A stretch of 64,000 nucleotides of DNA from Romanomermis culicivorax. Its lineage: Eukaryota; Nematoda; Enoplea; Mermithida; Mermithidae. The position numbers and the translations under genes were made by a program. Positions 11,501-62,782 of the stretch are shown piece after piece (position 1 is the first letter of the stretch; every line of letters begins with the position of its first letter). The stretch is from contig CAWUHX010000005.1 of NCBI GenBank assembly GCA_963922205.1, positions 930,001-994,000 on the forward strand, read 5' to 3'. Below the pieces are notes generated by a model that saw only the letters and a program-made list of their open reading frames with translations, was not told where the DNA came from and did no database searches.

Positions 11501-11553
11501 TACTTAGGAAAAACATCACATATCACAAAAATTTGCGCCACGTAATTCCAAAT

Positions 11554-14320: not shown

Positions 14321-14633
14321 GGGTAAAGTTAGAAAAACAACGAGCCTTTTCGAATTTTGGTGGGGACATATTTGATCGTCCCCCTCTTTCTAAAAAAAAA
14401 AGAAAAACAAACATATTTTTGTCTTTTTCCGATCTTCTGATAATCGGCGTGGAAAAATCAATCCGATTTCTCCCCTTGCAAAAACAAGACAACTTTTCGA
14501 TTCACATAAGCTTTTTTTGGGTATCATAACTGGGTTTTCGAGCATACCAAATCTGGAAAGTAAACGTGCCGAAACCCTAAGTGAAACATTTCTGCGCATT
14601 GAACAAGAAGCTAAAAGCCAAATTATTAGAAAA

Positions 14634-18695: not shown

Positions 18696-21600
18696 AGTTT
18701 TGTGCGACTGGGAAACACGACCATCCCATGCACTGGCGTACAGTACCATCCCTTAGGAAGACGTGGTGGTATTCATTTGGATCAAAATCTCATTTTGCCG
18801 CCCTGTTCGGTTATTCAATTGTCCGTTCCCCTTTCGGACATGTATAAAGGCGTGCCTGTGGTTCAGTTTGAACCCAGCAACACCCTAGTTCAAAAAGCAG
18901 GAGTCTGTTTTGCAGCTTCAGTTTCACCGAATATTGAGGGCAGAATTCGAATCTCGGTTATGAATCCCCTAACGGATGAAATAAAGCTTTTTCAAAACAC
19001 TTGTGTGGGCAGCATAAAAAATTTCGCTTCAAAAACAGAAAAAATTCACAGCATGCAACCTGAAGTAGCAAAAACTGAAAACATAAATGAAAAGAAAAAT
19101 TTCAAAAAATGGTTGGTTGATAATATCAATTTGACCAATACTGACCTCAATGAAGAAGAGAAAAACATGATTGTGGAAATTCTAGCCCAATATCCCAACC
19201 TGTATGCTACCGATAAATCCGACACGGGTCGTACTTCCTTAGTTGAACACAGGATTGATACGCAGGGTAATACACCAGTGAAACGACCCCTTTTTCGTAC
19301 TGCCCCCAAAGAAAAAGAAATAATTCAAGAAGAAATCAACAAACTTAAGCAAAGTGGGATCATCAGCAAAAGCCAATCCCCTTGGTGTACTAATACGATT
19401 TTAGTACGGAAAAAAGATGGTGGTTACCGTCTTTGCATTGATTTCGGTGGGTTGAACAATGTGACTAAAAAGGACTCATACCCTTTACCTCGCATCGATG
19501 ACATTTTTGATGCCTTGTGGGGTATGCGTTACTTCACAACCCTCGATCAGGCCAACGCATATTACACCATCCCCATCGCGGAGGGCGATCGGGAAAAGAC
19601 GGCATTCAATTGCCCTTCGGGCCAATACCATTTCAATTATTAGCCCTTTGGCCTATGCAATGCACCAGCTAGTTTTCAACGCCTAATGGACGTTCTTCTG
19701 TCGGGTTTACAGTGGCAGACATGCCTTGTTTACCTGGATGACGTTCTTATTTTTGCAAAAACTCACAAAGAAATGCTTATGCGCCTAGATGAAATTTTGG
19801 GCCGCTTGGACAAAGCTGGCCTTAAACTAAGGCTTGGAAAATGCAAATTCTCACAGTCATCTGTCCAATATTTGGGACACGTCATAAATGAAACTGGAAT
19901 CCTGCCTGATCCACAAAAGGTTAAAGCAATTCTGGAAATTCCAGCTCCAAGAACTGTCAAAGAAGTGAAGTCATTCCTGGGGCTACCATCTTATTATCGG
20001 AGGTTCATTCGGAACTGCTCACAAGTTGCTAACCCTTTGACAAAACTTCTCAAAAAGATGCTACTTTTGAATGGGGCCCAGATCAACAAAAAGCATTCGA
20101 AACTTTGAAGGCACACCTCATATCAGCACCCATCTTGCATCATCCAAATTTTTCAAAACCGTTCATACTCCAAACGGACGCTTCCCTTTTAGGTGTGGGA
20201 GCCTTTTAGGTGTGGGAGCCGTCCTTCCTCCGAACATCCCATTGCTTTTGCTAGCAGAGGATTGAAACCTGCTGAAAAAAACTATCCAATAACCGAACTC
20301 GAAACTCTTGCAGTCGTCAAATTTGTAAACTATTTCCGACCCTATCTTTTTCAGCAGGAGGTCATTATTCACACTGACCACACTGCGGTTAACGCGGTTC
20401 TCAAGAAAGAGAACCCCAATTCCCGAATCGTTCGGTGGGGACTTGCATTAGCAAGTTTCAAATTGAATATCCAGCCCAAAAGGGGCTCAGCCAATAGAAA
20501 TGCAGATGCAGTTTCCAGGTTCCCATTAAAAGATGCAGAACCAGCATTTGATATCGAAAATTTGGAAACTAGACCAGAATTAAATATGATAAACATCGAA
20601 CCTGAAAACAGAATCCTTGCCCTTGGATATGGGCTTGAGGATGAAATTGACGAAAATCAGGAAATAATCAAAAACTTAGCGGAACTTCAACTTTCTGACC
20701 CTGATACACGACAAATCATCAATGAAATTAATAAGGGTCCAGATGCAAAAATAAACGACGTTTACATCATCCAAAATAATCTGTTATACCGGAAATTCGA
20801 AAATGAATATAAAATCTACGTTCCAAAATCATTCCGCCTGGAAATCCTAAAATCGCATCACGATAGCAAATTTGCAGGCCATTTTTCCTCCCGGAAAACT
20901 TATGAAAATGTGCGACAACGATACTTTTGGCCTCAAATGCGGAAATTTGTGGAAGAATATTGCCAAACTTGTCAAAAGTGCCAATTCAACAAGCCTACTA
21001 GACATGCGATCAAAGCTGATTTGGTTCCAGTTCAGGCTTCACAACCATTTGAGCGAGTGGGATTGGACTGCATGGGTCCTCTCCCCATTTCCAGCAACAG
21101 AAACCGTTATGTTGTAGTTTTTATCGACTATTTTACTAAATACATGGAAGCCTTTGCTACCCCTAACATAACGTCACAGACAATCGCTTCTCTTTTTGTC
21201 GAAAAAATTGTTTGTCATCATGGAGCCCCAAGAATCATTCATTGTGACAGGGCTTCCGATTTCACATCACAACTTTTTACAAATATTACAAAGTTATGCA
21301 ACACAGAAAAAGTACACACTACCCCCTATCATCCGATGGGTAATGGAGAAGTAGAAAGGTGCAATCAAACCCTCGTTACCTGTATTCGCATGTACGTGAA
21401 TGAAAATCATTCAGATTGGGATGATTATCTTCCCTACGCGGTATTTTCTACAAATGTTCATAAAACTGAAAGCAGGGGTTATTCACCTTTCCAACTCGTG
21501 TATGGGCGACAACCCTTGCTGCCATCTGATGCAGCATTCAGTCTCAAAAAGTCACCCTATATGGTTGATCTCAGCGAATATGCCAACGAAATAAAAAATC

Positions 21601-22049
21601 ACTTGTCAAAAGCATTTGAAAACGTACAGGCCACCCTGTTGGCTTCACAAAATTGGTACTCAGAACAGTACAACAAAAAATCACACAATGTACAATATCA
21701 AACTGGAGACCTAATCCTTCGGAAAACTAGACTCGTTCGTAAAAATCAGAGTCCTAAGCTAGTCTCGCAGCAGCATGGACCATACAAAGTCGTCAAAGTT
21801 GCATATCCAAATGTCGAAATTGAGCACCCGGATACACGGAAACTTTACAAATTGCACGTTAATGACACTGTCCGGTTCCATCCCCGCATCTCTGCCGTCC
21901 ATCGTACCACATCATCTAACCAGTCCAGCAACGTCAAACGTGTCAGACATCATCAACAATCAGTCGGCTCGATTTGGCGTCATTGCTTTAGTCGGCACGG
22001 CGTCAAAACCATGGGAGAAGGTTGCGACCGAGGGCGTTCGCCTTTGTAA
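18696..22049 (+). pseudogene. pol: gypsy pol: reverse transcriptase, RNase H, integrase
   Basis: Pol continues in the gag-env-pro frame after TAA 18,693-18,695. RT blocks are clear: SPWCTNTILVRKKDGG, LDQANAYY, PFGLCNAPASFQRL and the catalytic YLDD (about 19,733). RNase H includes the TDAS and ITELETLAVV region; integrase has an HHCC zinc site (20,857-20,985) and a D-D-E core (GLDCMGPL at ~21,064, HCDRASDF at ~21,241, GEVERCNQ at ~21,346). Lesions: TAG 19,641-19,643 inside RT, a one-base frameshift near 20,057, a 17-bp tandem duplication 20,187-20,220 and a one-base loss near 20,228 in RNase H. From 20,193 the integrase frame is open to 22,049. The copy cannot make an intact polymerase. Confidence 0.9.
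20187..20220 (+). repeat. 17-bp tandem duplication disrupting RNase H
   Basis: The unit TTTTAGGTGTGGGAGCC occurs twice back to back (20,187-20,203 and 20,204-20,220). Seventeen bases is not a multiple of three, so this breaks the RNase H frame right after its TDAS motif. It looks like replication slippage. Confidence 0.85.
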
Positions 22050-44068: not shown

Positions 44069-44380
44069 AGTAGTAGGGAGACCCCCCCTCAGTCGTAAAA
44101 AGCTCCCCGGCCCATGCAAAAGATAGGCGCTGGACTTAAAAAAAAAACGACGTGCTCCCTGGCCTGTACAAAAGATAGGCAAGCATTGGCTTGCCCAGAT
44201 TTTGAACGTTTCAACCAGCTAGCTGCAAAAATATTCATTTTTTCAGCTGGCTAGCTAATAAAGTTTTCAGAACATGACTATCTATCCTGTCATGTACAAA
44301 AGATAGGCTAGCATTTTCTAGCCTAAAGGAATCAACTATAGCTGGCCAGCCACCTTTTCATCATCATTTTACTAGTTAAA
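44069..44380 (+). repeat. Polinton-1 left terminal inverted repeat
   Basis: Inverse complement of 59,859-60,175 from AGTAGTAGGGAGACC to TTTTACTAGTTAAA. It contains CAAAAGATAGG three times, the last two each followed by a short hairpin (GCAAGC-att-GGCTTGC; GGCTAG...CTAGCC), and a pair AGCTAGCTG/CAGCTGGCTAGCT around an AT core. Confidence 0.9.
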
Positions 44381-44488
44381 TAAAAAACTTGTTACATACC
44401 TGTATAGAATTTATGTGCACCGCCACATTTTTTTTGGCGAATACGCAAAATGAATGCATACGAGCTTTACCAAAAAAAGTAACGAAAA

Positions 44489-45010: not shown

Positions 45011-45852
45011 TTACGTAAAATCAATTTCTTTCAGACGACTATTCAAGATCAAGTTTGTCACTTGATCTGGCCGAAAAATAGGGCAATCAGAAATGCTTAA
45101 TATTTCCAATGATTGCGGCATTTTTTCCACTGCTTGCAAGAATGGCAAGTGGATATATTTTATGTGGGGCATACCAAAAATTTTTTCACAATTTTTAAAA
45201 GCAAAGAAAAATGTGATTTTTTTAAGTGAAAATGGCAATATGCGCCTGATGGTGCAAATAACAGGGCCTGGGCAGGTCATCCCTGCAATTTCCATTGCAT
45301 AAGGCCGAATTTGACGTAACAAGACATCCAAACGGGTCATAATGTCATTGTTGACTATGTAGTCTGTGATTATTTCAACGTATGGACGACGTTGGATAAC
45401 ATTTTGGCCGTACAAATCCACGGATCGTTCCACGGCATCTTTATTCATTCTTCGTACACTGAAGCATGAAATGTTAAAACATAATTATGATGTTTCATGC
45501 CTTTAGACCATTAATTTAGAGGAACATTTTTTTGGAAAGGATGTCATCTTCAAGTGCAGTTTACAAAATATGGGTATGCATGGACATGCATCTCTGTCAA
45601 TTATCACCATATGAAAAAAATAGAATAAAAAATAAAAATGTCTTATTACCTCAATGGACGATCTAATGGCAGTGAGCCATTGAACGTAATATCCAGTGTT
45701 CTATCCGACGATTGCATGACATCATTTCGTAGAAATGTGCAAAAAGATCTGTTTAAATTTTCACACTTGATTCTATCTTCAAGTGATAAAAAATTGAAAA
45801 TTGTCGAAATAATTTCTGCTGGTAATTTCTCAAAGGCACCTTTATCCGCCAT
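45011..45852 (-). CDS. F-box protein, two exons
   Basis: Exon 1 (45,852-45,650) encodes an N-terminal F-box: FEKLPAEIISTIFNFLSLED followed by RIKCENLNRSF, at residues ~7-40. Exon 1 ends ...ttgAG with donor GTAATAAG (45,649); exon 2 starts at 45,458 after acceptor ...atgcttcag, and joining the two keeps the frame (191-bp intron). Exon 2 adds ~148 residues to a TGA/TAA-type stop at 45,011, with Leu/Ile-rich segments near the end (PQSLEILSISDCPIF, LNSRLKEIDF) that resemble two degenerate leucine-rich repeats. The product is about 216 residues. F-box proteins link substrates to Skp1-Cullin ubiquitin ligases; a mobile-element copy could redirect host ubiquitination. The frame is intact in an otherwise damaged element. 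It sits at the distal end of the minus-strand block; the target is unknown. Confidence 0.7.
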
Positions 45853-46167
45853 TGTGACTTCTTTCTATGGATGTCACTGATGCCTATATTATTTTCATAT
45901 TGGCATTCTGATGATGTTTTGTTTTTGATCTTATCTGATTTCATTTTATCTGATTTCATTTTATCTGATTCTGTTTAAAATGCCTGCAAATACATGCACG
46001 AGTTATTGTTCACAAATTTTCAAAAAAAGATAAATGGAAAATAAGCATGACAACTTGAAATAACAATTTTTTTTTATTCCATTATATTTAATTTTTTTTT
46101 TTTTGCATTTTTTCCATTTTTTGTGTTATATTGTCAGTTCTTTACTATCAACTATTTTCTCATTTTA

Positions 46168-46371: not shown

Positions 46372-46529
46372 TTTCACAGAGTGATTAAAATCCCTCAGAA
46401 CCTTGATATTTATACTATCTCATACAGTGTCTCTGACAGTGACTCATCTGCTTGAATTTGAGAACTACATTTGTACTTCTCAACAAGTCTGAGAAAATTT
46501 CCAAAAAAGCTTTGCAATTCATCCACTGA

Positions 46530-46991
46530 TCATGCTCCAGTGATAATAATCTTCCCCTTGTGAAAGACTAAGGCACAAGGTCCAAATTTGTTGATTTCAT
46601 ATTTTAATGCAGGAAACAACTCAGGAGTGTAATCACACTGCCTTTTAAAAGCATTGTAGAAATTTTCAACATTGATGGGGCAATCCATTGCATGGGAACC
46701 AACTACATTGCAAAGTCGAAATTTTCTGGGCCTTGGCATATAGCCAAGCTTTAGAAAGACTTCTGTAGCATACTCTATGCCACTCACTGCCTGATCAACA
46801 GTTTTGATGCCAACACAAACCAGTTTTCCATTTTCATACAACAACAGACAGCATTTGGGAGCAGGAATGTGCCAAATTAAGGATTTAAATTTTCCTTCAC
46901 TCAACCTTGTATTAGCTAATTTTTTCAAAAGTGAGTTCAAGTGTAGTTTACAACCTAGTTCAGCTGTTACAGTCATATTTTGTACATCCAT
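46530..46991 (-). CDS. TBP: TATA-binding-protein (TBP) homologue
   Basis: The 153-residue product aligns over its whole length with the two-repeat saddle of eukaryotic TBP. Repeat 1: NMTVTAELGCKLHLNSL ... FKSLIWHIPAPKCC ... GKLVCVGIKT ... YATEVFLKLGY. Repeat 2: FRLCNVVGSHAMDCPINVEN ... YTPELFPALKYEI ... LVFHKGKIIITGA. Of the four aromatic positions TBP inserts into the TATA minor groove, Phe is kept at residues 35, 126 and 143 and replaced by Tyr at 52. There is no N-terminal extension beyond the core. A TGA at 46,530-46,532 truncates the protein at ITGA, but the same frame continues for 39 codons to TAA 46,410-46,412 with a helix-like sequence (SVDELQSFFGNFLRLVEKYK) matching the final TBP helix; so the ancestor was full length. 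It starts three bases beyond the minor-capsid stop. Divergence from cellular TBP suggests an old capture or viral origin. Confidence 0.85.
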   Translation of the reverse strand: MDVQNMTVTAELGCKLHLNSLLKKLANTRLSEGKFKSLIWHIPAPKCCLLLYENGKLVCVGIKTVDQAVSGIEYATEVFLKLGYMPRPRKFRLCNVVGSHAMDCPINVENFYNAFKRQCDYTPELFPALKYEINKFGPCALVFHKGKIIITGA

Positions 46992-46994: not shown

Positions 46995-47783
46995 TTAAAA
47001 TAAACTTCTTTTTCTAAAGTGTAATTTCACAATACTCTTTCCAGTAACAAACTCGATAGCTTTATCAGTATCAGTCCTGATTGAAATGTCAATCGTTTCT
47101 ATATCTTTTATCAGAACAGGAATATAATGAGGGGCTATATATATTTTGTCAATTATATCACTAAAATTACCCTCTATATTGACAATATGCAGAAGTGGGG
47201 CCAGAATATCACCAGCCATCTGCTGCTCAATGATATTACAATAAACATACATGGTTTCTAGCCCTGCTTTCATGTCTGAGGGGTGCTTATCTGCAGCCTT
47301 TAGCCGATCAGGGTTGGTTGGGTCTTTGATGAGTTGTTCCCTTTCAAAGCCGAGCATGTACATTAAATGATCACTCATAATAAAACTTTTGATCCTTGTT
47401 AGATCAATTTTTAAGACAACTACCCTGGCTAGTCTCCTATAAGAAAGATCAATAAATTGTGTATATGGGATCTTTTCCTGATCACTCAATGCTATTAGGG
47501 ACTGTTGAATTGCTTCAACTAAATCAGTAATCACTTCGTACCGTGTGCATGGTATTTTCAGTTTATGACTTGTATTAGTCTGAATATCATAAAATGTAAT
47601 TATATGGTCATCTGGTACTATATTGTACCAAGTATTGGGGTAAATAAATTCACACAGTGCACACTCCTATTCACCTTGCAAAATGAGTCAGTATGGTAAC
47701 CTTACAGTGAAATTAGAGGCAGTATTACTTGCATCACTCTGTGCATTACTTGGTAGGGTTACAAAAAATTGTGAACTATCCAT
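46995..47783 (-). pseudogene. Polinton-1 minor capsid (penton) protein
   Basis: From ATG 47,783 the frame reads MDSSQFFVTLPSNAQSD, NFTVRLPY, and (after TGA 47,690-47,688 and TAG 47,669-47,667) ECALCEFIYPNTWYN, then ITDLVEAIQQSL. It continues openly to 46,995 with KAGLETMYVYCNIIEQQMAGD, APLLHIVN, IAPHYIPVLIKDI, and a C-terminal KSIVKLHFRKR. This is the single-jelly-roll minor capsid (penton) family of Polintons, about 263 codons, here inactivated by two stops in the N-terminal strand region; one stop replaces the Trp expected in the conserved G-x-W-E motif. A TATAAAAGT box lies 39-47 bases upstream of the start. Confidence 0.85.
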
Positions 47784-47815: not shown

Positions 47816-48322
47816 TCATCTACTTTTATAGTTTCTACATAGCTGATCCAGTATGAAACCTTCATCATGTGACACAGTATTTGTCCTAAAAAGGGCATCG
47901 ATGAATCCAGTTACATAGTCATCAGCATAACTCTGTTCTAAGCTATTAACAATATCTGTCAAGGGGATACCCCTCACCCTCCACAGGAAGAAATAAATGC
48001 ATAGTTGACCACAGGTAGATGTTAAGTAGTTTTGTATACATTTTTCATTGTACCTAAATGAATAGCAGTTTTCTCCAATGTATTTTAGCAGAGTTTGACT
48101 TGGTTCTAACCCATAACTATCAAAATAATCACATTTATGTTTTTTATCAATGTATAGAGCTATCCAGTGGGATCCAGGTTCATTGTGCCTGTCCAGATTA
48201 ACAATGAGTGCAGCAGGCACTGTCTCACAAGAAGGTATAGCATTAATAGGGAATACCCCATTAAAAATTTGTCCAAGAGCCTGATCACTCTTTAATAAGC
48301 TTAAAATCTGACTGGTATTCAT
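47816..48322 (-). CDS. adenain-like cysteine protease (maturation protease)
   Basis: An intact 168-residue protein starting at ATG 48,322, overlapping the end of the capsid gene by four bases. The catalytic triad of adenovirus/Ulp1-type proteases is visible: His52 in PGSHWIALYID, Asp68 in CDYFDSYG, and Cys104 in STCGQLCIYF, with Gln98 near the oxyanion position. In Polintons and adenoviruses this enzyme cleaves capsid and core precursors during virion maturation. Length is normal for the family. No TATA-type box is obvious upstream; expression may depend on the capsid transcript. Confidence 0.9.
   Translation of the reverse strand: MNTSQILSLLKSDQALGQIFNGVFPINAIPSCETVPAALIVNLDRHNEPGSHWIALYIDKKHKCDYFDSYGLEPSQTLLKYIGENCYSFRYNEKCIQNYLTSTCGQLCIYFFLWRVRGIPLTDIVNSLEQSYADDYVTGFIDALFRTNTVSHDEGFILDQLCRNYKSR
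47822..47830 (-). promoter_or_regulatory. TATAAAAGT box, minor capsid gene
   Basis: TATAAAAGTA, one mismatch at the last base, starting 47 bases upstream of ATG 47,783, inside the end of the protease gene. Confidence 0.6.
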
Positions 48323-49577
48323 GCAGTATAGTCATTAAAAATATGTCTGTTTTTATCAATCATTATCAGGTTATCAAATTCTGCATAAACTATTACTTCT
48401 ATACCCATATCAGGTATTCTATTAGCAAAGGTCAACTTAATACTAGTTGTGCCCTCCTTAATCAAATCCCAATGCCCACTGTCATCTTCATCAGGTGTTA
48501 AGTCAAAAGCAAAATAACATTGGCCATATTTAAAGTTGCTTCTAGTTATTCCATTGCCCTTATTGTCTTTGGCAATGTCTAGAGTTTCAAAAAGTTGGTC
48601 ATAAGCTCGAACGTACTTATCATTTGCAGAATCAAGTTTAAACGGTGTGGCTGGGAATGTGAGCCCACCAGAAATAATTTTTACTTCACTTATACTATAG
48701 CATTTAAAATTAAATGGGGATTTTCTCAATTCCCCACGGTAAGCATCTGCATCAACACATGCTATAATCATTCTTTGAGGCAACTGCCCTGTAAACAATG
48801 TGTTTAATGGGGTGGACTGTGTGGTACTTGCGATGTGAAGACTCATCATTTGCACCCTTCTGATGGGGTATTTGGCTGGTATTTTCAGAATGGTCTTTTC
48901 TAATGCCAAACCAACACTATCGAGGACTTCAACTTTTCTTATTAGGAGCTTTATCTGTGAAACTTCAAGTTTTGCATTATCAGCATCACCAGCTGGACAC
49001 TGTAAAACAAATGCATTACTATTTCTAATTAATTCAAGTCAATATGTAGTGGAGCTGTTACTTCCACCATTTTCCCATTATCAAAATATTTGACTCTATC
49101 TTTGAACCCCTTACACTCTGCAGTGTCAATCTTATCTCCAGCCTCTAGGGTGTAAAGAGAGGACTGTAGATGGCTGTTCTTTGCATCATATCCAAAGTTT
49201 AGGTCAGATTCAATAAAAGCTCTATATGCATACTTGTCACCACTGTCATGAACAAGGCGACCATTCAAGAAGAGCTTAACTTGTCTGAAAAAGGTTTTAC
49301 CTATCAAATTGATTGGAGCAATTACAGGGGCGGCAGCTCCAGCTGGAGGAGCTGTGTAAGTTAGTTTCAAAACCATATAAAGATAATTTTTACTCAGTTG
49401 AATCATATGAGGGTCTGGTGGAATTCGGAATTCATATGGTCCATCATTTGTAACAGGATTTATGGGATTTATTTCATCCCACTGGCCCCGTTTTATAACC
49501 ACCTGGGTTGGTGGCACAGTGAAAAAGTCCAGTTCAGACTTTGTACTAATGTTTGAAATTGAATCAATGAGAGACAT
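48319..49577 (-). pseudogene. Polinton-1 major capsid protein (double jelly roll)
   Basis: From ATG 49,577: SELDFFTVPPTQVVIKRGQW, NPVTNDGPYEFRIPPDP, LIGKTFFRQVKLFLNGRLV, KYAYRAFIESDLNFG and APLHIDL, the N-terminal jelly roll of the Polinton major capsid family. At about 49,030 the frame stops; coding resumes one frame over (RNSNAFVLQCP...LEVSQIKLLIRKVEVLDSVG) and runs to 48,319 with AKYPIRRVQMMSL, TGQLPQRMIIACVD, KSPFNFKCYSI, GHWDLIKEGTTSIKLTF and YAEFDNLIMIDKNRH. Between LHIDL and RNSNAF about 15 residues normally present are absent, so the break looks like a small frameshifting deletion. It would form the hexon-like capsomers. A TATAAAAGTT box lies 38-47 bases upstream. Confidence 0.9.
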
Positions 49578-49992
49578 TCTTTTTCTTTTTTCTGGAAAAT
49601 ATGTCTTGCTTTCTAACTTTTATATCCTTTGGTCGACTTCCAAGCCCTTTGCCAGTCTGTTGTTGTAATGCTTCACTAGCTTTGTGTGCTAATGATGATA
49701 GAGCTGATCGTCCATGTTCTTCCAGAGATTCCCTAACAGGTCTACCTTGGGCTAAGTCACCAGCAATGTGGGCCCCAGTTGTGAGGGCTTGTTTTCCAAT
49801 ATGACTAGCTGCTGACTTGATGACTGGTACTGCCATTCTGAATAATGACCTGAAAAAGCTACCTAAACCTCCCCCATGCTGGTATGGGGTGCCTTTGAAA
49901 CCCACCAGTCGTCCATAGCCAATCTGGTCTGCTTGCTCAGTATAGTACTGGAGCCAAGTTGCATAATCTTCAGGATTAAAATATTGCCTCAT
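49564..49992 (-). CDS. small basic virion core-like protein
   Basis: An intact 142-residue protein, starting at ATG 49,992 and overlapping the capsid start by 14 bases. It has a Gly-rich motif (HGGGLGSFFRSLFRMAVP), an amphipathic helical middle (KSAASHIGKQALTTGAHIAGD) and a Lys/Arg-rich C-terminus (RKQDIFSRKKKKN). Proteins with this Gly-FFRSLF-amphipathic-basic design sit next to the capsid gene in many Polintons and are compared with adenoviral core or pVI-type proteins. The role is inferred from position and composition. A TATAAAAGTT box lies 48-57 bases upstream. Confidence 0.65.
   Translation of the reverse strand: MRQYFNPEDYATWLQYYTEQADQIGYGRLVGFKGTPYQHGGGLGSFFRSLFRMAVPVIKSAASHIGKQALTTGAHIAGDLAQGRPVRESLEEHGRSALSSLAHKASEALQQQTGKGLGSRPKDIKVRKQDIFSRKKKKNVSH
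49615..49624 (-). promoter_or_regulatory. TATAAAAGTT box, major capsid gene
   Basis: Exact motif starting 47 bases upstream of ATG 49,577, inside the end of the core-like gene. Confidence 0.65.
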
Positions 49993-50039: not shown

Positions 50040-50049
50040 AACTTTTATA
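50040..50049 (-). promoter_or_regulatory. TATAAAAGTT box, core-like gene
   Basis: Exact motif starting 57 bases upstream of ATG 49,992. Confidence 0.65.
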
Positions 50050-50053: not shown

Positions 50054-50767
50054 TCATGCTCTTAACTTTAGCCACTTTAGTCTGCCACCACTTCTTGGGG
50101 TGCTTACTTTTTTACTCATAGACTGTGGGGTTTTCAATCCTTCTGGTAGCCCAGTTGGTGAGGCATAAATGCCTTCAGTATCACTGCCCAAATTTAGTCT
50201 GGACTTATTTACAAAAAGATGCCTGGGAACATTCTCTTTAACCAGATTTCTCACAAATATATCTGTTCCCAATGCAGGCTACCTCTTGGAACCCATTCTA
50301 ACAATATCAGAAATCATGTCAACAATATTAGTCCCTGTTATTTTATTACCACTGATAATCATTTCACCCTTATCAGACCAGTTCATGTGGGGATTGTTAG
50401 TTGCATAATCATAGAGCATTTTGGCCTGATTATGCCACTTTCTGGGGACAATTATCATTGTTTTCTGAAACAATACATCTTTATCAGGTGAATGTTTTTC
50501 TTCCACTTCCTTATCCTTTTCTTGTACCTCTGGAAGAGCAACTGGTTCGGAAATCCTTAGCTCAAATGGTTTTGTTTGTTCTTGTTCAGCTTGCCTGTGT
50601 CTATGTAAAACCTGGTTATATAAAATAGCTTTTGCATCTGAGGGTAATGCTCTGTTTTGTAATATTTCACTCATCTCTCTATCTAAATTGGACATTACAT
50701 TGGCAGCTAATTCCTGCCTTCGCCCAATATCATGAGGGACAAGAATCATTTTATTTGTGTGCATCAT
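50054..50767 (-). pseudogene. conserved Polinton protein of unknown function, stop-interrupted
   Basis: The frame from ATG 50,767 (MMHTNKMILVPHD) runs 162 codons to TAG 50,281-50,279, then continues in the same frame to 50,054 (TDIFVRNLVKENVPRHLFVN ... KTPQSMSKK). Middle features are a helical REMSEILQNRALPSDAK region, an acidic linker, WSDKGEMIISGNKI and NIVDMISDIVR. This layout, next to the ATPase and the MAQDRL-type protein, is that of a common Polinton ORF often annotated as hypothetical. About 237 codons in total with one in-frame stop. Its ATG overlaps the stop of the preceding gene (ATGA-type), so the two may share an mRNA. Confidence 0.65.
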
Positions 50768-51108
50768 TTTCTAGTAATTGCATCAGCAATTAATTGTCCT
50801 GCTATTCCTAATATAGGTGCTAATAATATTGGTAAAAATCATCCTTTTTGTTCTAAAATTTCCTTTCTTTGCTTGAGAGCAGTTTTTCTATCAGTCTACA
50901 TGTGTAAACACTTTTTATGAGACTTCAACTTGTCTAGAGTGTCACTGTCAATTTTTATATTACCACTGAGCATGTTTAGGATACATTGACAAAGACAGAG
51001 TATCAAATCCTTATCAGCTGCACTAATTATTGCTTTCCTCTGTTTGGGTTTAGCTTTCGCTATAACTCTGATGTAGTCAATATTATGCCTTAGACGATCT
51101 TGAGCCAT
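50764..51108 (-). pseudogene. small conserved Polinton protein (MAQDRL type), stop-interrupted
   Basis: From ATG 51,108: MAQDRLRHNIDYIRVIAKAK then KPKQRKAIISAADKDLILC and LDKLKSHKK, followed by TAG 50,898-50,896, a TGA at 50,841-50,839, and a hydrophobic C-terminus (ILLAPILGIAGQLIADAI) to TGA 50,766-50,764. A short helical, basic protein with a hydrophobic tail of this design is common beside the Polinton packaging ATPase. Function unknown. 114 codons with two in-frame stops. TATAAAAGTT lies 33-42 bases upstream of the ATG. Confidence 0.65.
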
Positions 51109-51140
51109 GTTTTGTTTTTTTTTCTTCAAAAGAAAAGATC

Positions 51141-51150
51141 AACTTTTATA
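51141..51150 (-). promoter_or_regulatory. TATAAAAGTT box, MAQDRL-type gene
   Basis: Exact motif starting 42 bases upstream of ATG 51,108; it overlaps the end of the ATPase reading frame. Confidence 0.65.
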
Positions 51151-51767
51151 TTTTTGGCAAGTAGACTGTAGGATATTTTGAAAAAATGTCAGTTCTCAGT
51201 CTAAGTTTCTCAGGAGTAGTTTGAGAAAGGTCAATAATTATATAACTAAAAGGATGGAATGTGGCATCCTCAAAAGACTAAAAAATATTTTACATTGTCT
51301 GGAAAAAGCTGCCTAGCTAAAGTTTTCACTTGCAATTTGTCAGAGAGATTCTTCATCAGGACTAGATATTCAGCATTGATTCTAGAGGTACGAAGGCCCT
51401 TGAAAAATACATTTTGTACAATGTGAATAACAGAAACATTCAAGTGATGGCAACCCCTTGTAAAAAGTTCAATTAGATGACTATCACTGCTCATTTCCTG
51501 CATGAGATTATCTAAGACAAGCAGCTGAGGCTTTGGCGACATTTCCCTAATAAAGCTCATATCTGGAAGACCCTGAAGGAAGGATACCTTTCCCTCTAGC
51601 TCCTTATAGACTGGCTGTTTCTCACTATAGTACCACCATACATGCTGGGGAACAGGGGTTATCAAATGTTCTATGTTCAGTATCAGATTTTTGACAAATG
51701 TTGTCTTGCCAGCTTTTGTTGGACCAGCAACAATGCACGTAAAGGGATGCTTGAAATATATACTCAT
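51146..51767 (-). pseudogene. FtsK/A32-like genome-packaging ATPase
   Basis: From ATG 51,767: MSIYFKHPFTCIVAGPTKAG carries the Walker A loop (residues 15-22, GPTKAGKT), and PQLLVLDNLMQ (82-88) the Walker B. SVIHIVQNVFFKG is the sensor-like region. A frameshift in a T/A run at about 51,280 ends the frame at VF; the adjacent frame carries the expected C-terminus (DATFHPFSYIIIDLSQ, PEKLRLRTDIF) to TAA 51,148-51,146. In Polintons this ATPase is thought to pump DNA into capsids. TATAAAAGTT is 38-47 bases upstream of the ATG. Confidence 0.85.
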
Positions 51768-51804: not shown

Positions 51805-51814
51805 AACTTTTATA
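51805..51814 (-). promoter_or_regulatory. TATAAAAGTT box, packaging ATPase gene
   Basis: Exact motif starting 47 bases upstream of ATG 51,767. Confidence 0.65.
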
Positions 51815-52976: not shown

Positions 52977-54029
52977 TTACAATTTAATTAGTTCAGCCAC
53001 CCAACTGTTGAATTTTTCTGGGTACCCTTTCCATTTTATGAGATATTCAGTCTTGCCAGCTTTTTTTCTAGTCCTTACAACTTTTTCCACAATACCTACA
53101 TCAGAGACTTCATCCACCTTTTGTAGTTCTGGCTCATAAAAGATACCCTTTACAATTTCACCCAACTGATCCCTAATCACATAGACTGGTGGCTGCCTGG
53201 CTTTCATTTCATGTACAATGGAAATTTCATCACTCCAATTTGGAGTGTAACCTTTTTCAAAGGTTCTCTTTACTTTGCTGATGCGTACCTTATCACCAGG
53301 TTCCAGCTTGAAGATTGTATGTACTTTGCATTTGCTAAACATTTTTTCTACAATTTCTGCCTTATTTTTATCATTCACCTGAATAGGTGGCACTCCTATG
53401 GTTCTGTGCCTGCTCGTATTATATGCCAACAATAAATGAGGCAAGACATCAAGATATCTGTACGTATTTTTCTTGGTGAAGTACCTCCACATTCTTTCTT
53501 TCAATGTCCTGTTAAAACGCTCCACAATGCTAGCCTTGGTCTCACTATTAGTTATAAAGAAGGTAATGTTTTGCTTTTTTAAGAATGACTGGAAAGGTTC
53601 ATTTGTAAACTCTGTGCCAGCATCTGTTTGGACTTTTTGGGGCTTCCTTCCTGAATCAAGAATAATATTGAAAGCATCTAGAATAGAAGGCCCAGTCTTA
53701 TTTTTTAGGGGGATCGCCCAGGCATATTTGGATAAAACATCCACACAACTTAGTACACATTTGAACCCATCATTGTGCTTGGATAAGGAACTGAGGTCTG
53801 CGAGGTCCATTTGCCACTGTTCATCAATATCACTAACCAGAACAGGATTTCTAGTGTAGTGGCGCCTGGCATATCTGTGTACAGTATAGGTTGACTGCTT
53901 TTGCAGCCATTTTTTCACAAATGATAAATTCACACTTGGATCCTCTTTTTTGGCCCTTTCATAAAGGTTCTGGGCACTGCAGTATCCAGTGTCAGGGTTA
54001 TAGTATATTTCTTCCAATAGGTTATCCAT
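52977..54029 (-). CDS. int: Polinton integrase (DDE) with chromodomain
   Basis: An intact 350-residue retroviral-type integrase from ATG 54,029. Catalytic residues are Asp75 (WQMDLADLS), Asp136 (VQTDAGTEF) and Glu170 (SIVERFNRTLKE). An LLLAYNTSRHRTIG helix follows, then an SH3-like C-terminal region (PGDKVRISKVKRTFEKGY) and a chromodomain at ~308-350 (TEYLIKWKGYPEKFNSWVAE) that would bind methylated histone H3 or related marks and steer insertion. Length is normal for the family. No lesion is seen, which contrasts with PolB. It is followed upstream by the membrane-protein ORF. AATAAAAGTT at 54,063-54,054 lies ~25-34 bases upstream. Confidence 0.92.
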   Translation of the reverse strand: MDNLLEEIYYNPDTGYCSAQNLYERAKKEDPSVNLSFVKKWLQKQSTYTVHRYARRHYTRNPVLVSDIDEQWQMDLADLSSLSKHNDGFKCVLSCVDVLSKYAWAIPLKNKTGPSILDAFNIILDSGRKPQKVQTDAGTEFTNEPFQSFLKKQNITFFITNSETKASIVERFNRTLKERMWRYFTKKNTYRYLDVLPHLLLAYNTSRHRTIGVPPIQVNDKNKAEIVEKMFSKCKVHTIFKLEPGDKVRISKVKRTFEKGYTPNWSDEISIVHEMKARQPPVYVIRDQLGEIVKGIFYEPELQKVDEVSDVGIVEKVVRTRKKAGKTEYLIKWKGYPEKFNSWVAELIKL

Positions 54030-54307: not shown

Positions 54308-54317
54308 AACTTTTATA
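54308..54317 (-). promoter_or_regulatory. TATAAAAGTT box, membrane-protein gene
   Basis: Exact TATAAAAGTT on the minus strand just upstream of 54,293/54,281. Confidence 0.6.
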
Positions 54318-55075: not shown

Positions 55076-55084
55076 TATAAAAGG
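55076..55084 (+). promoter_or_regulatory. TATA box of PolB
   Basis: TATAAAAGG, 66-74 bases upstream of ATG 55,150. Similar to the minus-strand boxes but with GG rather than TT at the end. Confidence 0.6.
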
Positions 55085-55149
55085 CGAGAAAATTTTAAAA
55101 AGTTCATTGTTGAATTTTGTCAGGCTAGATAAAGGTTGAATCTTTCAAA

Positions 55150-58100
55150 ATGGAAAGTGACTTTTTTTTATGTGAGGACTGTCAAAAAGTATTCAAAGAA
55201 TTGCGATTTCTGAATGAGCATATTAATGTAGTTCATAGGGGATGGAGGTACAGATGTCCTCAATGTTCCTCCTTATTTACCCAGGTAAAGGGATTGAAGA
55301 AACATTGGTAAAAACAACACAGTATTTTAAGTTGCTACTACTGTGGAGCAAGCTTTGGAAATCAAACAGAATTATTCAGTAAAACCACAGCAATGTATGT
55401 CTACTAGTAAAGCCAGGAATAGAGGTTTCAACAGAAAGCGACTCAATGAATGGAATGTTAATTTTCAACCAGCACCCATGGATGCCGAAAGTCCAGAAGA
55501 TTTAGATGATTACCCAGAAGAAATGTGGGACGAAATTGAAAATTATTGGAGGCTTATTAGGACAAATAAGTCAACTTTAAATTTGCTCGATCATGTTTAT
55601 AACTATCGTTGGAGTTACATGGGCGGGGATTTCAGGAAAATGTTGGACGACATATATTTTACTGAAAAAAAATGCTTTCGGCTCAATGGAGCAATTGGAT
55701 GTATTTTGCGAAATATGGTAAGTGGGGAACTAAAATACTGGTACGCATGCCAAAATAACTTTACATTGCTTGAACAATCAGTCCTAATTAAGAATGGGGA
55801 AGATATCAAAAGTTTGACTGAAACATTGAAAAATGTCAATATAGAGGAAATTTTCACCCGTCCAGACACAAAATGGGAGCTTTCACTAATTACAAATATC
55901 GAATTTTATGTTACACCTCAAAAAAACTTTGTTGCTGGGTGCAAAGAATATCGTTTGCCTGAGCCCCTCGCACACCAAAGACAATCTTTTGGCCATGACA
56001 CACGATAGCCAAAAGAATAGGTATAAGGATAACCTATGCTTATTTCGATGTATAGCTGAATGTCTCACCAATAATTTTGATGACAAAAATGTTGTTTTCA
56101 AGTTTTTTGTAAAATATTGCCAAAACAAGAAAATACCTTCAGTTGTAGAAACTTTTCCGGGCGTTCCCTATACAGATTTAGAAATGCTAGAAAATTTGTC
56201 CAAAATTGATATTCAAGTATTTCATATAGATGAAAAGACTAGTATAGCACTCTGTTGGAAAAATGTTGTTCAAAAATATGAAAAGCTCCTAAATTTGAAC
56301 GTTTCTTTCACTGAAAAAAGACAAGCTCACTACAGCTACATCGTAAACCTAGAACAGTATGCTAAGCGATATTCCTGCATATTTTGCAGCCGCCTTTTTA
56401 GAAAAAGAAAATTATTGAATGATCATATGAATTTACACTGTAAAGAAGGAAAAACTGTGCACAAATTCCCAGGAGGTGTCTACGAAGTAAAGGAAACCAT
56501 TTTTGAACAGTTGGAAGAATTAGAAATTATTGTAGATGAAGTACAGCGATTCTGCCCATTCTATGCAGTGTACGATTTTGAGTCCATACTGGCCAAAAAA
56601 TCCCAAAAAACTTCAGAAAAATTGGTTTTTATCACACAGCATCAACCTGTATCGTTTGCTGTAGCTACTAATGTTCCCGGTTTTGAACCAGTTTGTTTTG
56701 TTGAGCAAGATCCTGATGTATTAGTTCGACAAATGTTGGCACATCTAGAACAAATCAGTGCAAAGCAAAAAGAAATCTTATGTGATCAGTACAAATCTGT
56801 GTTTGAAGATCTAAACTCTCTTATTGAAACATGCACAGCCTATATTAATGAACTCAAGGAAAAAAAGATAGATTTCAGGAGAGAAAAAGGTTATTTGAAC
56901 TCAATTGCAGCAGTTAAAGGGCGACTGGTAACGTATTGTTGTCAGTCAACTTGTCTCGGGTTCAACTCTGCAAAATATGACATAAATTTGATCAAAAGAA
57001 ACATTTTTCCGAAGCTTGTCCAGGAAGTGAGGGAAAATGGAAAAACTTGGCCTAGGGCCATATTCAGGAATAGACCATATTTATGCCTCTCCACCCAAAA
57101 CTTAAAATTCTTGGATATTTCAATGTATGTTGCTCCCGGTTTTAGTCTAGATTCTTTTATGAAAGCTTACGGAGCCACCCTTTCTAAAGCAAAGTTCCCG
57201 TACGAGTATTTGGATACCTTTGAAAAGTTGAATGAACACACGCTACCTCCTCCAGAAGCATTTTATAATAGCCTTCGAAAAGAATCAATTTCTACCGAGG
57301 ATTATGAAACATGCCAAAAATATTGGGTTGAAAATGGCATGAAACCTTTGAAGGACTTTTTAATATTTTATAACCTCAGGGATGTCGTCCCCTTCTTGAA
57401 AGCAGTTAATGTAATGACCAAGATTTACAGAGAACAGTTTGGAGTAGATATTTTTAGGGAGGCATGCTCCCTTCCCCGCATTACCGAAAGATATCTTTTC
57501 AATAGCATTCCAGACACTCGATTTGCCCTTTTCTCAGGTAAGTCAAAAAATATCTACTACTCACTCAAGTCCAGCATGAGGGGTGGTCTGGCGATGGTAA
57601 TGAATCGGCTGGCAATTCAGGACGAAACTTTCATTCGCAACAATCCAGAGAAACCTGTAAAATTGATCGTAGGTCTAGATTTTAATGCGTTATGTTTATG
57701 GGCCCAATCTATGCCAACCCCAACAGGACATTTCGATCATTGGGTGCCAAAAAGAAATGAATTTCAAAAAGTAATAAGTTCAAAACCCATTTCTGTCGAG
57801 TGGCTCGAGCAAGAAAGTTGGAAAAGTGGGCAAAGCATTCAACATCTTGGGAATGGCAAAGAAAAATGCATAGGACCACGACACTTGCCCGTGGATGGAT
57901 TCTGCCAGACAACCAACACCATCTATGAGTTCTACGGTTGTTATTGGCACTGCCATCACTGCGCTTATTCCAATCAAAACAAGAAGGACAGCAATGGGGA
58001 AAACGAAAAAAGAAAGGCCAAAGAGGCTTACATTCGATCACTAGGCTACAGATTCATTTCCATATGGGAATGTGAATGGTTAAAACAATGACAAGACTAC

Positions 58101-59330
58101 ATAAAAGCAAGGGCGCAGGCGAACCCCCATTTCTTTCGGAAATATCAGTTTCAAAAGTATGTGAAAAAACTTGATATGGAAAAATCAATTTTCGATGGTT
58201 CTGTTTTCGGGTTTGCAAAAGTTGATATCTATACTCCAGATTATCTGAAAAATCAATATGCAGATTTCCCTCCAATAATAAAACACACAGAAATCACAAT
58301 AAATGACATTGGTCAGCTTATGAAGCAATATGCAGAACAGACAGGTCAGATGAAAATGCCAGGAAGAAACCTGATTAGCAGTTTTTTTGGTAAGGAAATC
58401 ATCTTATCGACTCCAATGATTCAATTTTTGATTAAACACGGGTTAGTTCTTGAAAAACTCCACGAAGTTATCCAATTTGATGAAACAAGGCCTTTTGCAG
58501 CCTTTAAAGATAAAGTAACAAAACACAGAATAGAAGGGGATAGTAATCCTGAGCTAAGCATGATTGCCGATACATTTAAACTGCTGGGTAATACCGGATA
58601 TGGAAAAACTCTAACCAACAAAGAAAATCATGCCGAAGTATTTTATACAGATTATGAAAAAGCAGCTGAGCTCAGCATCAGTCCTTATATGAAAAGGATA
58701 AAGTTCGTAGCTGAAGACTGTTACGAGGTTCAAATGAGAAAAAAAGAAATAATTCTAGATTTGCCCATTGTAGTTGGTATTTCAGTATACAATTGGGCGA
58801 AAATCCGTATGTTAGAGTTTTTTTATGATATTTTACAAAAATATTTTGATCCATCGGACTATCAGTGCATGCAAACGGATACAGACAGCATCTACCTCGC
58901 ATTGTCAGCTCCTGATTTGTTGAGCATTGTGAAACCAGATATTAGAGATAAATTTTTGACAGAAGTATACCCGAAATGGTTTGTGACTTCAGATGCTACC
59001 AAACGGACCCCCAGTCTTTTGAAAAAGGAATACGAAGGGACTTCCATGTGCTGCCTAGCACCAAAGACATATATCGGGATTGACTCTCCAACTGGAGAGA
59101 AAAAAATTAGTTCCAAGGGGTTAATGAAAAAAACAAATAATTTAGTGTTTGATCAATACTGATCAGTGCTAGATTCAAAAACCTCCAGTTATGGCACCAA
59201 TATTGGATTCAGGATGCGTCCTGACAATCAAATGTGGACGTATCTACAAGAAAGGCAAGGTTTGCCATATCTTTATATAAAGCGAAAAGTTTTAGATGAT
59301 GGCATAACCACGGTGCCATTGGATTTGTGA
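55150..59330 (+). pseudogene. polB: protein-primed DNA polymerase B (pPolB)
   Basis: From ATG 55,150 the N-terminus holds C2H2 zinc fingers (FLCEDCQKVF, YRCPQCSSLF), broken by TAA 55,309-55,311 and a frameshift before the 55,343-56,008 frame. A second shift near 55,985 leads to the long frame to 58,091: KDNLCLFRCIAECL (the DNLCLFRC block usual in Polinton PolB), another C2H2 finger, exonuclease motif YDFESI (56,566-56,586) and LGFNSAKYDINLI, and polymerase motif A GLDFNALCLW (57,672-57,700). After TGA 58,089-58,091 the same frame continues with motif B KLLGNTGYGKT (58,578-58,610) and motif C TDTDSIY (58,875-58,896), then TGA 59,160-59,162 and the tail to TGA 59,328-59,330. About 1390 codons. 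It replicates linear DNA from a protein primer at the TIRs. At least three stops and two frameshifts make this copy inactive. Confidence 0.9.
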
Positions 59331-59650: not shown

Positions 59651-59858
59651 AGTTGGGCACTGCGAGTCATACAATGTATGGCCGGTATATCCTGTAAAAG
59701 GGGTATACTTGGCATCACATATGTACCGGCCTCCACGTGGCTGATGCCGGAACTTGCCCAAAAGGTCAGTACTAACGGGTACATATTGTACAACAATACA
59801 TAATTTAAAAAAACTTACGTTTCTGCTGCTAAAACCCTCCATCGTAAAAATAATATTG

Positions 59859-60175
59859 TTTAACTAGTAAAATGATGACGAAAAGCTGGCTGGCCTGCTA
59901 TAGTTGATTCCTTTAGGCTAGAAAATGCTAGCCTATCTTTTGTACATGACAGGATAGATAGTCATGTTCTGAAAACTTTATTAGCTAGCCAGCTGAAAAA
60001 ATGAATATTTTTGCAGCTAGCTGGTTGAAACGTTCAAAATCTGGGCAAGCCAATGCTTGCCTATCTTTTGTACAGCCCGGGGAGCTCGTCGTTTTTTTTC
60101 TAAGTCCAGCGCCTATCTTTTGCATGGGCCGGGGAGCTTTTTACGACTAAGGGGGGGGGGGGTCTCCCTACTACT
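59859..60175 (-). repeat. Polinton-1 right terminal inverted repeat
   Basis: Inverse complement of 44,069-44,380 with minor differences, including a 12-base G run near the end where the left copy has seven. Confidence 0.9.
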
Positions 60176-60457: not shown

Positions 60458-61195
60458 ATGGGTGATTTCACATCAGGACCAGGGGAATTTTTTCTCCAAA
60501 CAAATCATCGGATTCATTAGTTAAAAAGGAGAATGGTGAATTCACCTATTTTCTACCAAAACCCTTGGAGTTTATTGGGGAATGGGAAGTTGGGGTAGTA
60601 CAGATTATAATGGAACCCCAATTTCCTGCTAAGAAAAACAAGATATCACTAAGTTACAAAGAGACCCCTGATGAAAAACCAAAACTTTCATATATGGATA
60701 TAGGTAAGGATTTCTTTCAAAACAGTCAGAAAATTGGTAGATTTTTTCAATGATTCTATACCTCAAAAAGTCAGACAAAACGTAAAGTTATCTCTGAGTA
60801 GCGAAATATTTGCTCTCTTAAAACTTTCAGACTGTCAAGTACAGTTCGACTCTGACTATTTCAAAAAAGTTCTCCGTTTGAGTGAAAAGTATTATGATGC
60901 ATCTGTTACTGGCATATCCCCTATCCATCTAATGAAAAATATTCCAATTTTCAATCACTTATTTGATTGTGTAACTCCTACTTTGTATGGAAGTCATCAT
61001 ATACCTATCCTTATCACAGACATTTTCCCTGATGATCTGCACTTTGAAAACTATAAATATCAAAATATTTCTTACAATAAATTACTTCAAAGTTATGTAT
61101 CGAAATTATCATTATCTATTGCTGACAGGAAACTTTTAAAATTTCCTATACAGGATCCTCTGATAGTCAAGATACTTTTCAGAAAAACAATATGA
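60458..61195 (+). pseudogene. Polinton-2 minor capsid (penton) protein
   Basis: From ATG 60,458 the pieces read GDFTSGPGEFF, then in another frame ENGEFTYFLPKPLEFIGEW with EVGVVQIIMEPQFP (the G-x-W-E-V strand typical of Polinton minor capsids), then from ~60,734 FNDSIPQKVRQNVKLSLS, YGSHHIPILITDI and a C-terminal DPLIVKILFRKT. That ending parallels the KSIVKLHFR ending of the Polinton-1 minor capsid. At least two frameshifts (near 60,490 in a T run and near 60,740). TATAAATA lies at 60,424-60,431. The stop TGA overlaps the next ATG. Confidence 0.75.
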
Positions 61196-61341
61196 TTTAT
61201 CAACCATTCTCTCCTAAACAGGGTACATCCCTTCCAGAGTTGATGAAATCCTTAGAAGAGAAAAAGAAGAAAGAGCAGACAGAAAGCAAAAAGAGAATGT
61301 CTATAAAAACATCACATATCACAAAATTTTGCACTATGTAA
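61192..61341 (+). CDS. small highly charged ORF between capsid genes
   Basis: 49 codons from ATG 61,192 to TAA 61,339-61,341, overlapping the minor-capsid stop as ATGA. The product is Pro-containing at first, then very Lys/Glu-rich (EEKKKKEQTESKKR) and probably helical. Unknown function. The overlap and the lack of stops suggest it was translated. It does not appear in fragment A, which begins within its last codons. Confidence 0.4.
   Translation: MIYQPFSPKQGTSLPELMKSLEEKKKKEQTESKKRMSIKTSHITKFCTM
61302..61309 (+). promoter_or_regulatory. TATAAAAA box, Polinton-2 major capsid
   Basis: TATAAAAA starting 48 bases upstream of capsid ATG 61,350, the same spacing as the Polinton-1 boxes. Confidence 0.45.
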
Positions 61342-61349
61342 TTCCAAAT

Positions 61350-62548
61350 ATGCCAGGGAAAATTGCAGAAATTGACATTTCCCCTGTAATGGGGGACAAG
61401 GAAATAGAATTTTATCCTATAAACCCCTTAATATCTGGGGAACCCATCCAATTTGATATTCCTGAGAGTTTTACTCAGCTTACTGATCCTAATATTTTGA
61501 TAAAAGTTTCCTGTAAGATTGTCATAGGGGACAATACTGATTTGGTGGCTGATGCTAAGGTTTCTACTGTCAATTTAGCTCTACACACACTATTCAAAGA
61601 TGTAGTTTTTAAGGCTAATGGGGTCATTGTTAATCAAGCGACTGGAACCTATCCCTACCGTGCTTACATAGAAACTGTCTACATTTACACCACAACAGCT
61701 AAAAATTTGGCTGTCCCAGTGCCTTAATTATATTACAAGGAAACTGCAGGGAAATTCAACAGTTTCACTGCAAATTTTAATTCTAGTTTAGACACAAGAA
61801 TCTCGAAATTTGCAACAAGTAAGCAAGTCATAATGGCTGGTCGTCTTCATCTAGATTTACTGTTATAGTCTAAATTAATTATTCCTGGTATCAGATTTTC
61901 TATCAGCCTCTTTCCTTCAGACAATAAATTTCACCCGATGTCGGCAACAGTTGATGCTTCTAAGGAAATTGTAATTTCCTCAATTGTACTAATGCTTGAG
62001 TTTGAGTATATCTGCTTTGCTTGCTCTGGAAAGATGCTTACAAGCAAAACCTACTGTATATAAAATAAATCATGCTGCAGACAGAACTGCTCAACTCATT
62101 GCAGGTCAGACATACTTGAGCAATTATGTGGTTCATAATGGGCAGATACCTCGTTTAATTATTGCAGCAGTAACCCCCTCCCTTTCCTTCTCTGGAAATT
62201 ATTAAGTAAACCCCTTTGCTTTCACATGGCGAAATTGCCTTTCTGCACAGATCACTATCGGGAGTAGACACTACCCTCCCCTTCCTTACAAACCTCTTGA
62301 TTCAATGATAGAACCATACTTGAACTCCTTGAGAATGGTCCAGAAACTATATACAGACTCGGACACGGGTCCTACCCTAGATGATTTCTTAGAAAGGGGG
62401 TTCCAAATTCTACCTTTCGACATTATTCTTGAAGAGGGGGGAGCTCACCTGACGAATGGAGTAGTAAGTTTCACAGCTCAATGGAAAAGTGAAGCTTTTG
62501 GCCAAAATTATGCAATCTTTTTCTATATTTTATGGGAGAATGAGATAA
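61350..62548 (+). pseudogene. Polinton-2 major capsid protein (copy B)
   Basis: From ATG 61,350, collinear with the 11.5-kb copy: KEIEFYPINPLISGEPIQF, LHTLFKDVVFKANGVIV, GTYPYRAYIE, then TAA 61,725-61,727 and TAG 61,866-61,868, both in positions where the other copy has a Gln codon. A frameshift before 61,996 follows, then GQIPRLIIAAVTPS, a TAA at 62,203-62,205 shared with copy A, and NSLRMVQKLYTDSDTG, LTNGVVSFTAQWKSEAFGQN and FYILWENEI, where it is cut by the dispersed repeat. The last ~20 residues are lost. Confidence 0.8.
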
Positions 62549-62782
62549 ATTGGTTCAATTACATAACGAAGTCTCTTGTGCAAGTGTACATAAAGAAGAC
62601 AAAAGCATTGAAACATCATATCCACGGCATGACAGAAAATAAATGCATGTGGAAAAAGTTTACGGATTTGGATATGTGTGTATAATTTTTATATGAATGG
62701 GTTTTGTCGATGTTTAACTTAAACTGCAAAAGGATTGAACAACCTCAAGGTTAAACATCCTAGTCGAAAAAATAAGCTTTGA

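Follow-up and report, generated by a model that had tools for sequence, protein, structure and literature searches.

A TATA-binding protein gene in the capsid module of Polintons from the nematode Romanomermis culicivorax

A Polinton (Maverick) lineage of the mermithid nematode Romanomermis culicivorax has its own gene for TATA-binding protein (TBP). The open reading frame (ORF) encodes both TBP repeats and is a regular member of the capsid module in two element families, A and B. The ORF lies in a stretch of 64,000 nucleotides (contig CAWUHX010000005.1, positions 930,001 to 994,000; hereafter the window), and the original prediction of a Polinton with its own TBP is borne out: copies are syntenic, intact frames occur among them, diverged family A copies are under purifying selection, and the protein has the TBP fold. 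We also describe a feature newly seen here: in families A and B the gene strand carries TATAAAAG boxes, often 36-57 nt ahead of a start codon.

Results

The window element is bounded by terminal inverted repeats (TIRs) of 314 nt with 96% identity, at 44082..44395 (ungapped part; similarity extends outward to ~44069) and 59844..60157 (extending outward to ~60175). The TBP ORF falls between these arms, as had been predicted. They are 15.4 kb apart, in the Polinton range of 15-20 kb; no matching 6-mers of a 6-bp target-site duplication were recognised beside the apparent ends of the window copy. TIRs, a retroviral-type integrase, a viral-type DNA polymerase B (PolB), an adenovirus-type protease, a packaging ATPase, a major capsid protein (MCP) and a penton are common to Polintons/Mavericks and adintoviruses, and the Polinton gene set found here comprises rve integrase, PolB, protease, ATPase, MCP and penton.

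On the minus strand, the penton (minor capsid protein) gene is open at 46995..47666, its N-terminal part lying beyond a stop at the upstream end. It is 84-85% identical to the family A penton of loci L012 and L013, and a structural model of the L013 penton (pLDDT 73, pTM 0.50) matches mavirus and adenovirus penton. The protease gene (PRO) follows at 47816..48322 (-), with a Peptidase_C5 match of 3.1e-4 and 20.9 bits, just below the cut-off of 21.3. The MCP is split into a C-terminal part at 48319..49038 (-) and an N-terminal part at 49029..49577 (-), the frame being broken between the two. Both were assigned by tblastn to sibling ORFs, which are uninterrupted and 433-444 aa long. A Pfam scan of both window pieces gave no match; we take them to be the MCP from sequence features and from homology inside the locus set only. 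Next come g142 (49564..49992, -), a small capsid-module protein kept beside MCP in sibling loci; g162 (50279..50767, -), likewise a conserved capsid-module protein of sibling loci; the A32-like packaging ATPase (51270..51767, -; Pox_A32 1.2e-6); and the integrase with chromodomain (52977..54029, -; rve 3e-11, Chromo 2.2e-9). A rightward module is headed by a C2H2 zinc-finger ORF (55129..55311, +; zf-C2H2 1.2e-7) and continues with PolB. The first part of PolB (55908..58091, +) is 34-36% identical over ~100 aa to the PolB of loci L022 and L024. The second part (58161..59162, +) lies in the same frame past a stop, in a stop-to-stop frame open over 58092-59162, and is assigned by position. A Pfam scan of the two ORFs returned no polymerase match. 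Several small conserved ORFs of the element carry no assignment.

Between the TBP gene and the left TIR lies an F-box-like gene in two open pieces (45011-45484 and 45646-45864, -). PF12937 matches it at 3.5e-5, just under its cut-off, and PF00646 at 3.4e-4, just over. Among 20 loci fetched from the genome it was matched only in L009-L011, and it is possibly an element-encoded ubiquitin-ligase adaptor.

The TBP gene itself occupies 46530..46991 (-), with 153 codons and a TGA. The original prediction placed both repeats of the TBP saddle in this ORF and proposed a Pfam search as a check; PF00352 matches the 153-aa ORF at E=1.5e-32 in two stretches that correspond to the tandem repeats. Human TBP in the PDB matches it at 1.9e-23 over 151 residues, and fold comparison likewise places the element TBP in the saddle fold. 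The start codon lies 3 nt past the penton stop codon, which agrees with the head-to-tail arrangement proposed for the two genes. The frame from 46991 to 46410 had been proposed as one ORF. It is indeed TBP-coding throughout, but it is not open: a TGA at 46530-46532 closes it after codon 153, so the window copy is damaged. The C-terminal remainder (46410..46529, -; 39 codons and a stop) continues in the same frame past the TGA and is part of a single open 193-aa frame in siblings. This frame is uninterrupted in three siblings, with 97-99% identity to the window copy.

We searched the 359-Mb assembly for further copies. At least 152 genomic matches to the 153-aa protein were found, a lower bound because only 150 of 254 candidates were scored. 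About 60 of the listed matches span all 153 residues without a stop (counted by hand). The 20 loci fetched around genomic matches comprise 12 of family A, 7 of family B and L028, a different element type. The order MCP-protease-penton-TBP on a single strand is found in 18 of the 20. Both g162 and g142 also lie upstream in 17 of these 18; L012 has lost g162 and most of g142. Locus L011 starts within the penton, leaving a truncated penton beside TBP, and L026 and L027 hold near-identical matches 16 kb apart. The original prediction had named absence of the ORF from sibling copies as a sign of a chance host insertion; the ORF is present in syntenic siblings, and the reading stands. A chance insertion of host TBP into one Polinton was ruled out by synteny and copy number.

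Linkage was also examined from the MCP, with 150 of 1073 candidate copies scored: 117 at 60% identity or more, and 33 more divergent. TBP positions came from 150 rows of the main search and 21 of another search. TBP lies within 6 kb downstream in 98 of the 117 copies (median gap 1315 nt), on the MCP strand in 98/98, with a chance expectation of ~0.3% per copy. Among the TBP matches listed, none lies downstream in the other 19/117, and TBP follows none of the 33 more divergent scored MCPs.

Family A is the window type, its TBPs being 69-99% identical to the window ORF (12 fetched loci); family B TBPs are ~36-40% identical to it (7 loci). TBP stands behind the penton in both, and their MCPs are 74-78% identical. 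Judged from sequence, the capsid module is common to the two families by descent. In the family B loci L022 and L024, PolB comes after TBP on the same strand; that of L022 is a single 1310-aa frame with a DNA_pol_B_2 match (PF03175) at 6.9e-41.

A second TBP clade, C/D/E, adjoins PolB in differently arranged elements, whose polymerases are up to 56% (L028, family C), 60% (L043, D) and 33% (L044, E) identical to that of L022 in their best segments. Downstream of TBP, L028 has an ORF that resembles penton and shares 26% identity with that of family A. In L043 and L044 TBP and PolB point away from each other, and neither locus yielded a capsid gene of the element. After the family E TBP, L044 has a Bcl-2-like ORF (5219-5626, +; PF00452 8.4e-6, below cut-off), which a small ORF in L043 (5429-5881) resembles by eye; the latter has no Pfam match.

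The genome also holds a high-copy Polinton family in which no TBP match was found at E 1e-4 in L042 and L054 (17.4 kb read). It is exemplified by C6:2199500-2216900 and accounts for the 33 of 150 scored MCP matches below 60% identity. It looks recently amplified, because 25 of these 33 share one score.

We estimated selection on TBP from 17 sequence pairs. Diverged family A pairs gave dN/dS of 0.09-0.28 in seven of nine, the other two being saturated; diverged family A copies are thus under purifying selection. Close family A pairs are noisy (0.27, 0.82, 0.55 and two undefined). The three family B pairs gave 0.85, 0.26 and 1.01, and the signal is not claimed for family B because two of them are near 1.

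Eighteen element TBPs (12 A, 3 B, one each C, D and E) were aligned and read at the positions of the intercalating phenylalanines, groove asparagines and TFIIB contacts. Both groove asparagines are retained in 18/18. The four intercalating phenylalanines are retained in two of three family B proteins and in the C and D proteins; the third family B protein (B_L023) has Tyr at the third position and E_L044 has Ile at the first. Family A reads F, Y, F, F in 12/12, in line with the predicted three of four phenylalanines and Tyr at the second. The PELFP stirrup is retained. Of the TFIIB-contact residues there, E282 and L283 are kept in A and B while E280 is changed to T, A, S or V; both TFIIB-contact glutamates are kept in C, D and E. 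Families A and B have changed TFIIA-side residues and two altered groove-facing residues of repeat 1 (V165 to T, T218 to V). Over the 18 proteins, identity to human TBP is 12-19/26 at the DNA-contact positions (the DNA face) and 23-35% elsewhere.

Seven TATAAAAG boxes lie in the window element, six of them on the minus strand. Those of the penton(-TBP) unit (47823..47830) and of MCP (49617..49624) are inside the 3' end of PRO and the g142 coding sequence, respectively. Others precede g142 (50042..50049), an 80-aa ORF at 50896-51138 (51143..51150; the sibling counterpart precedes a 114-aa ORF), the ATPase (51807..51814) and a 76-aa ORF upstream of the integrase (54310..54317). The rightward zinc finger/PolB module has its own at 55076..55083 (+). 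The seven compare with 1.4 expected, and 1 of 2000 shuffles reaches this number; the remaining ~48 kb of the window holds one. Over the whole window the count is not unusual (8 vs 5.6 in shuffles; 20 of 100 reach 8).

The boxes are likewise strand-biased in siblings. From locus start to TBP, 18 A/B loci hold 78 on the gene strand and 0 on the other, which are not independent since the loci are related copies. Single loci hold 2 to 5. In four loci that were shuffled the mean was 0.24-0.27, and the observed 5, 5, 5 and 4 were reached in 0, 0, 1 and 0 of 2000 shuffles. In eight loci with 38 boxes, 21 of the boxes are followed at 36-57 nt by an ATG that opens an ORF of 60 aa or more; these ORFs are the 114-aa ORF, g142, MCP, penton and, in L022, PolB. 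Six boxes are 11-23 nt upstream of the first such ATG, and for these a later ATG may be the true start; one is at 88 nt; three have no ORF of 60 aa in reach. Seven are at ~191-202 nt, mostly one conserved box before g162; it lies ~192 nt before that gene in families A and B (for example L010 313-320) and is conserved inside upstream coding sequence. Families A and B have the MCP and penton boxes in common, each placed within the preceding coding sequence or at its end. An extended box, TATAAAAGTT, is found in family A.

Under a uniform ORF rule, whose counts include flanking ORFs in each locus group, TATAAAAG stands within 110 nt upstream of 22/48 ORFs in six A/B loci, of 0/20 in three loci with copies of the TBP-less family and of 0/26 in three C/D/E loci. 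The looser TATAWAWR is found before 25/48, 4/20 and 6/26, respectively. The TBP-less family has three TATAAAAG in 17.5 kb, none within 110 nt before ORFs, and TATAAAAAG ~145 nt before its MCP ORF. Box and TBP together amount to roughly one evolutionary contrast with one TBP-less family, because A and B share their capsid module by descent. For the TBP gene itself, four family A loci show no separate TATA box in the 110 nt upstream. The family B loci L022 and L024 have TATAAATA at -72, and the L043 TBP has TATAAATA at -46.

Two further elements were noted in the window. A Ty3/gypsy-like retroelement (14394-22049, +) has a gag frame that runs on into a Monjiviricetes (chuvirus-like) fusion glycoprotein (PF24664, 2.1e-17), so that the glycoprotein precedes, and does not follow, protease, reverse transcriptase and integrase. 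A second Polinton-like element, very different from the TBP-bearing one, is present as fragments at 60466-62685 (+) and 11500-12279 (+). Its penton-like and MCP-like ORFs, in the order penton then MCP, were named by eye, with weak MCP similarity; TATAAATA lies ~45 nt before the penton-like ORF.

The element TBP is intronless and multicopy. The host encodes its TBP separately (L029), in a gene interrupted by introns; two of its segments share ~73 and 83% identity with human TBP. Trees were built from hand-picked rows, 39 of 120 proteins in one and 20 of 120 in the other, which left out the long rows P0071, P0090, P0101, P0109 and P0112. Host TBP joins the human and rhinoceros rows, with support of 99/93 in the 20-row tree and 82/25 in the 39-row tree. 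Of the phylogeny proposed in the original prediction, one part is clear: two Polinton TBP clades were recovered at 100/100 and 100/99, apart from host TBP and from five IMG/VR viral TBPs, which form a clade of their own. The AU tests, on the other side, reject no joining that was tried: A/B with host (p 0.18), C/D/E with host (0.11), C/D/E with animal TBPs (0.11), A/B with viral TBPs (0.20), and all Polinton TBPs as one clade (0.41). Since the branches are also long, we make no claim on donor, age or number of captures. In the best tree A/B stands beside animal TBPs, unsupported (13/0). The C/D clade stands beside archaeal-looking sequences in the 39-row tree, possibly a long-branch effect. 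A recent capture of host TBP was considered and set aside, the host gene having introns and grouping with human, yet the AU tests do not reject A/B with host.

Environmental relatives were found by profile searches; a single-sequence protein search gave no match at 1e-10. P0001 groups with A/B, and P0002, P0061, P0085 and P0107 with C/D/E, all as candidate Polinton proteins. P0071 joined A/B at 97/87 in the 39-row tree, and P0122-P0124, P0132, P0135 and P0148 resemble C/D/E by eye and profile. Nothing was confirmed by scans of viral contigs with the window TBP, integrase and PolB, with the TBP alignments A1 and A3 or with the MCP alignment A2. Alignment A4 found eight viral TBP loci (IMG/VR), of which five entered the 20-row tree; it did not include L050 and L051, which encode the same protein, or L053, a weak match. 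A single short match to A8 was left unused.

Discussion

Our results agree with the original prediction, which knew of no described Polinton with a TBP. The words TBP and TATA have 0 occurrences in the text of four Polinton/adintovirus papers (PMC11071308, PMC8097293, PMC10120064, PMC11071296), and no report of a Polinton TBP was found in the open-access literature searched, where the broad searches, with the largest result lists, were covered by their top entries. Passages of PMC10675990 describe other viral elements, of a green alga, that are without double jelly-roll capsid genes. Virus-encoded TBP is a feature in common with giant viruses and mirusviruses, whose genomes are far larger than a Polinton. 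Passages of PMC10132985 report TBP in 59% of mirusvirus genomes and the same gene cluster in 0% of Nucleocytoviricota; Megavirus chilensis is described as encoding a TBP, as well as its own RNA polymerase subunits (passages of PMC11464507), and CpV-BQ1 a TBP (in part of PMC12085832). The cellular paralogues TRF1, TRF2 and TBPL2/TRF3 have the TBP fold in common, and TBPL2 takes the place of TBP during oocyte growth (in part of PMC7755920). The Polinton TBP, in contrast, is element-borne, intronless and multicopy, and it does not group with insect TRF rows (two trees, TRF2 left out).

We propose that the element TBP probably nucleates host RNA polymerase II on the element's own TATA promoters. 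The TATAAAAG boxes before many element genes lend support to the idea in the original prediction that the element may control its own transcription. The protein would enter the nucleus, its saddle would bind the TATAAAAG boxes, and the conserved PELFP stirrup would recruit host TFIIB and RNA polymerase II, so that capsid genes could be transcribed free of dependence on, or limits from, host TBP/TFIID and its controlling factors. In family A, TBP would be produced together with penton and the late capsid genes, as a late amplification loop, because its gene begins 3 nt after the penton gene and has no own box within 110 nt; the family B gene has a TATA-type box to itself. A fuller version of this proposal, which we hold only tentatively, is that an old, independently evolving viral TBP lineage in animal Polintons, now in two clades found in differently arranged elements and with environmental relatives, may build initiation complexes specific to the element at TATAAAAG late promoters.

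Since the box is recognised by host TBP as well, its presence does not in itself establish use by the element TBP. Host TBP might instead serve the element promoters, and the element protein might act as an interference factor that titrates TFIIB/TFIIA or occupies host TATA promoters, shutting down or redirecting host transcription. The greater divergence from human at positions away from the DNA than at the DNA face would fit such a role, which we nevertheless consider unlikely: the PELFP stirrup is retained, and the strong TATA boxes kept before element genes point to use in the element's own transcription. TBP bends DNA strongly, and it might alternatively be a bending accessory for replication, packaging or integration. 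The TBP genes divergent from PolB in L043 and L044, and that of L028, whose element has both PolB and an ORF resembling penton, are in keeping with this idea, but the TIRs of the window copy hold no TATAAAAG and most boxes stand shortly before ORFs, making it decidedly improbable.

The nearest functional parallel, by analogy, is ORF24 of KSHV, a beta/gammaherpesvirus TBP mimic: passages of PMC12529657 describe a virus-encoded TBP-like protein that serves late genes, which host Pol II transcribes. The target of ORF24 is TATT, and it acts together with other viral factors, whereas the Polinton protein is by sequence an ordinary two-repeat TBP, next to canonical TATA boxes. A comparable late-gene system, with a TBP specific for element promoters and further element factors as in the herpesvirus viral preinitiation complex, would account for the altered groove residues in A/B and for the extended box TATAAAAGTT in family A. 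Pfam scans of element ORFs revealed no TFIIB-like or ORF34-like factor, and such a system seems quite improbable. That the gene is a functionless passenger, a host copy inserted by chance into one Polinton, is barely credible. The stop codon of the window copy would suit it, and the trees leave an animal donor for A/B possible (the AU test with host TBP); against it stand the many element-linked copies, their constant position across divergent families, the purifying selection on family A, the environmental relatives and the separate, intron-containing host gene.

Transposons and small DNA viruses are generally regarded as borrowing their general transcription factors from the host. If our proposal is true, a small virus-like transposon would instead provide host RNA polymerase II with a general transcription factor that it encodes itself. 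A Polinton family of ~16 kb that keeps a TBP under selection by capsid genes with TATA boxes would mean that the first step of Pol II promoter recognition can belong even to small virus-like elements. This matters for Polinton expression, which may take place in cells short of host TBP, for whether Polintons make virions, and for the source of the TBPs of giant viruses and mirusviruses.
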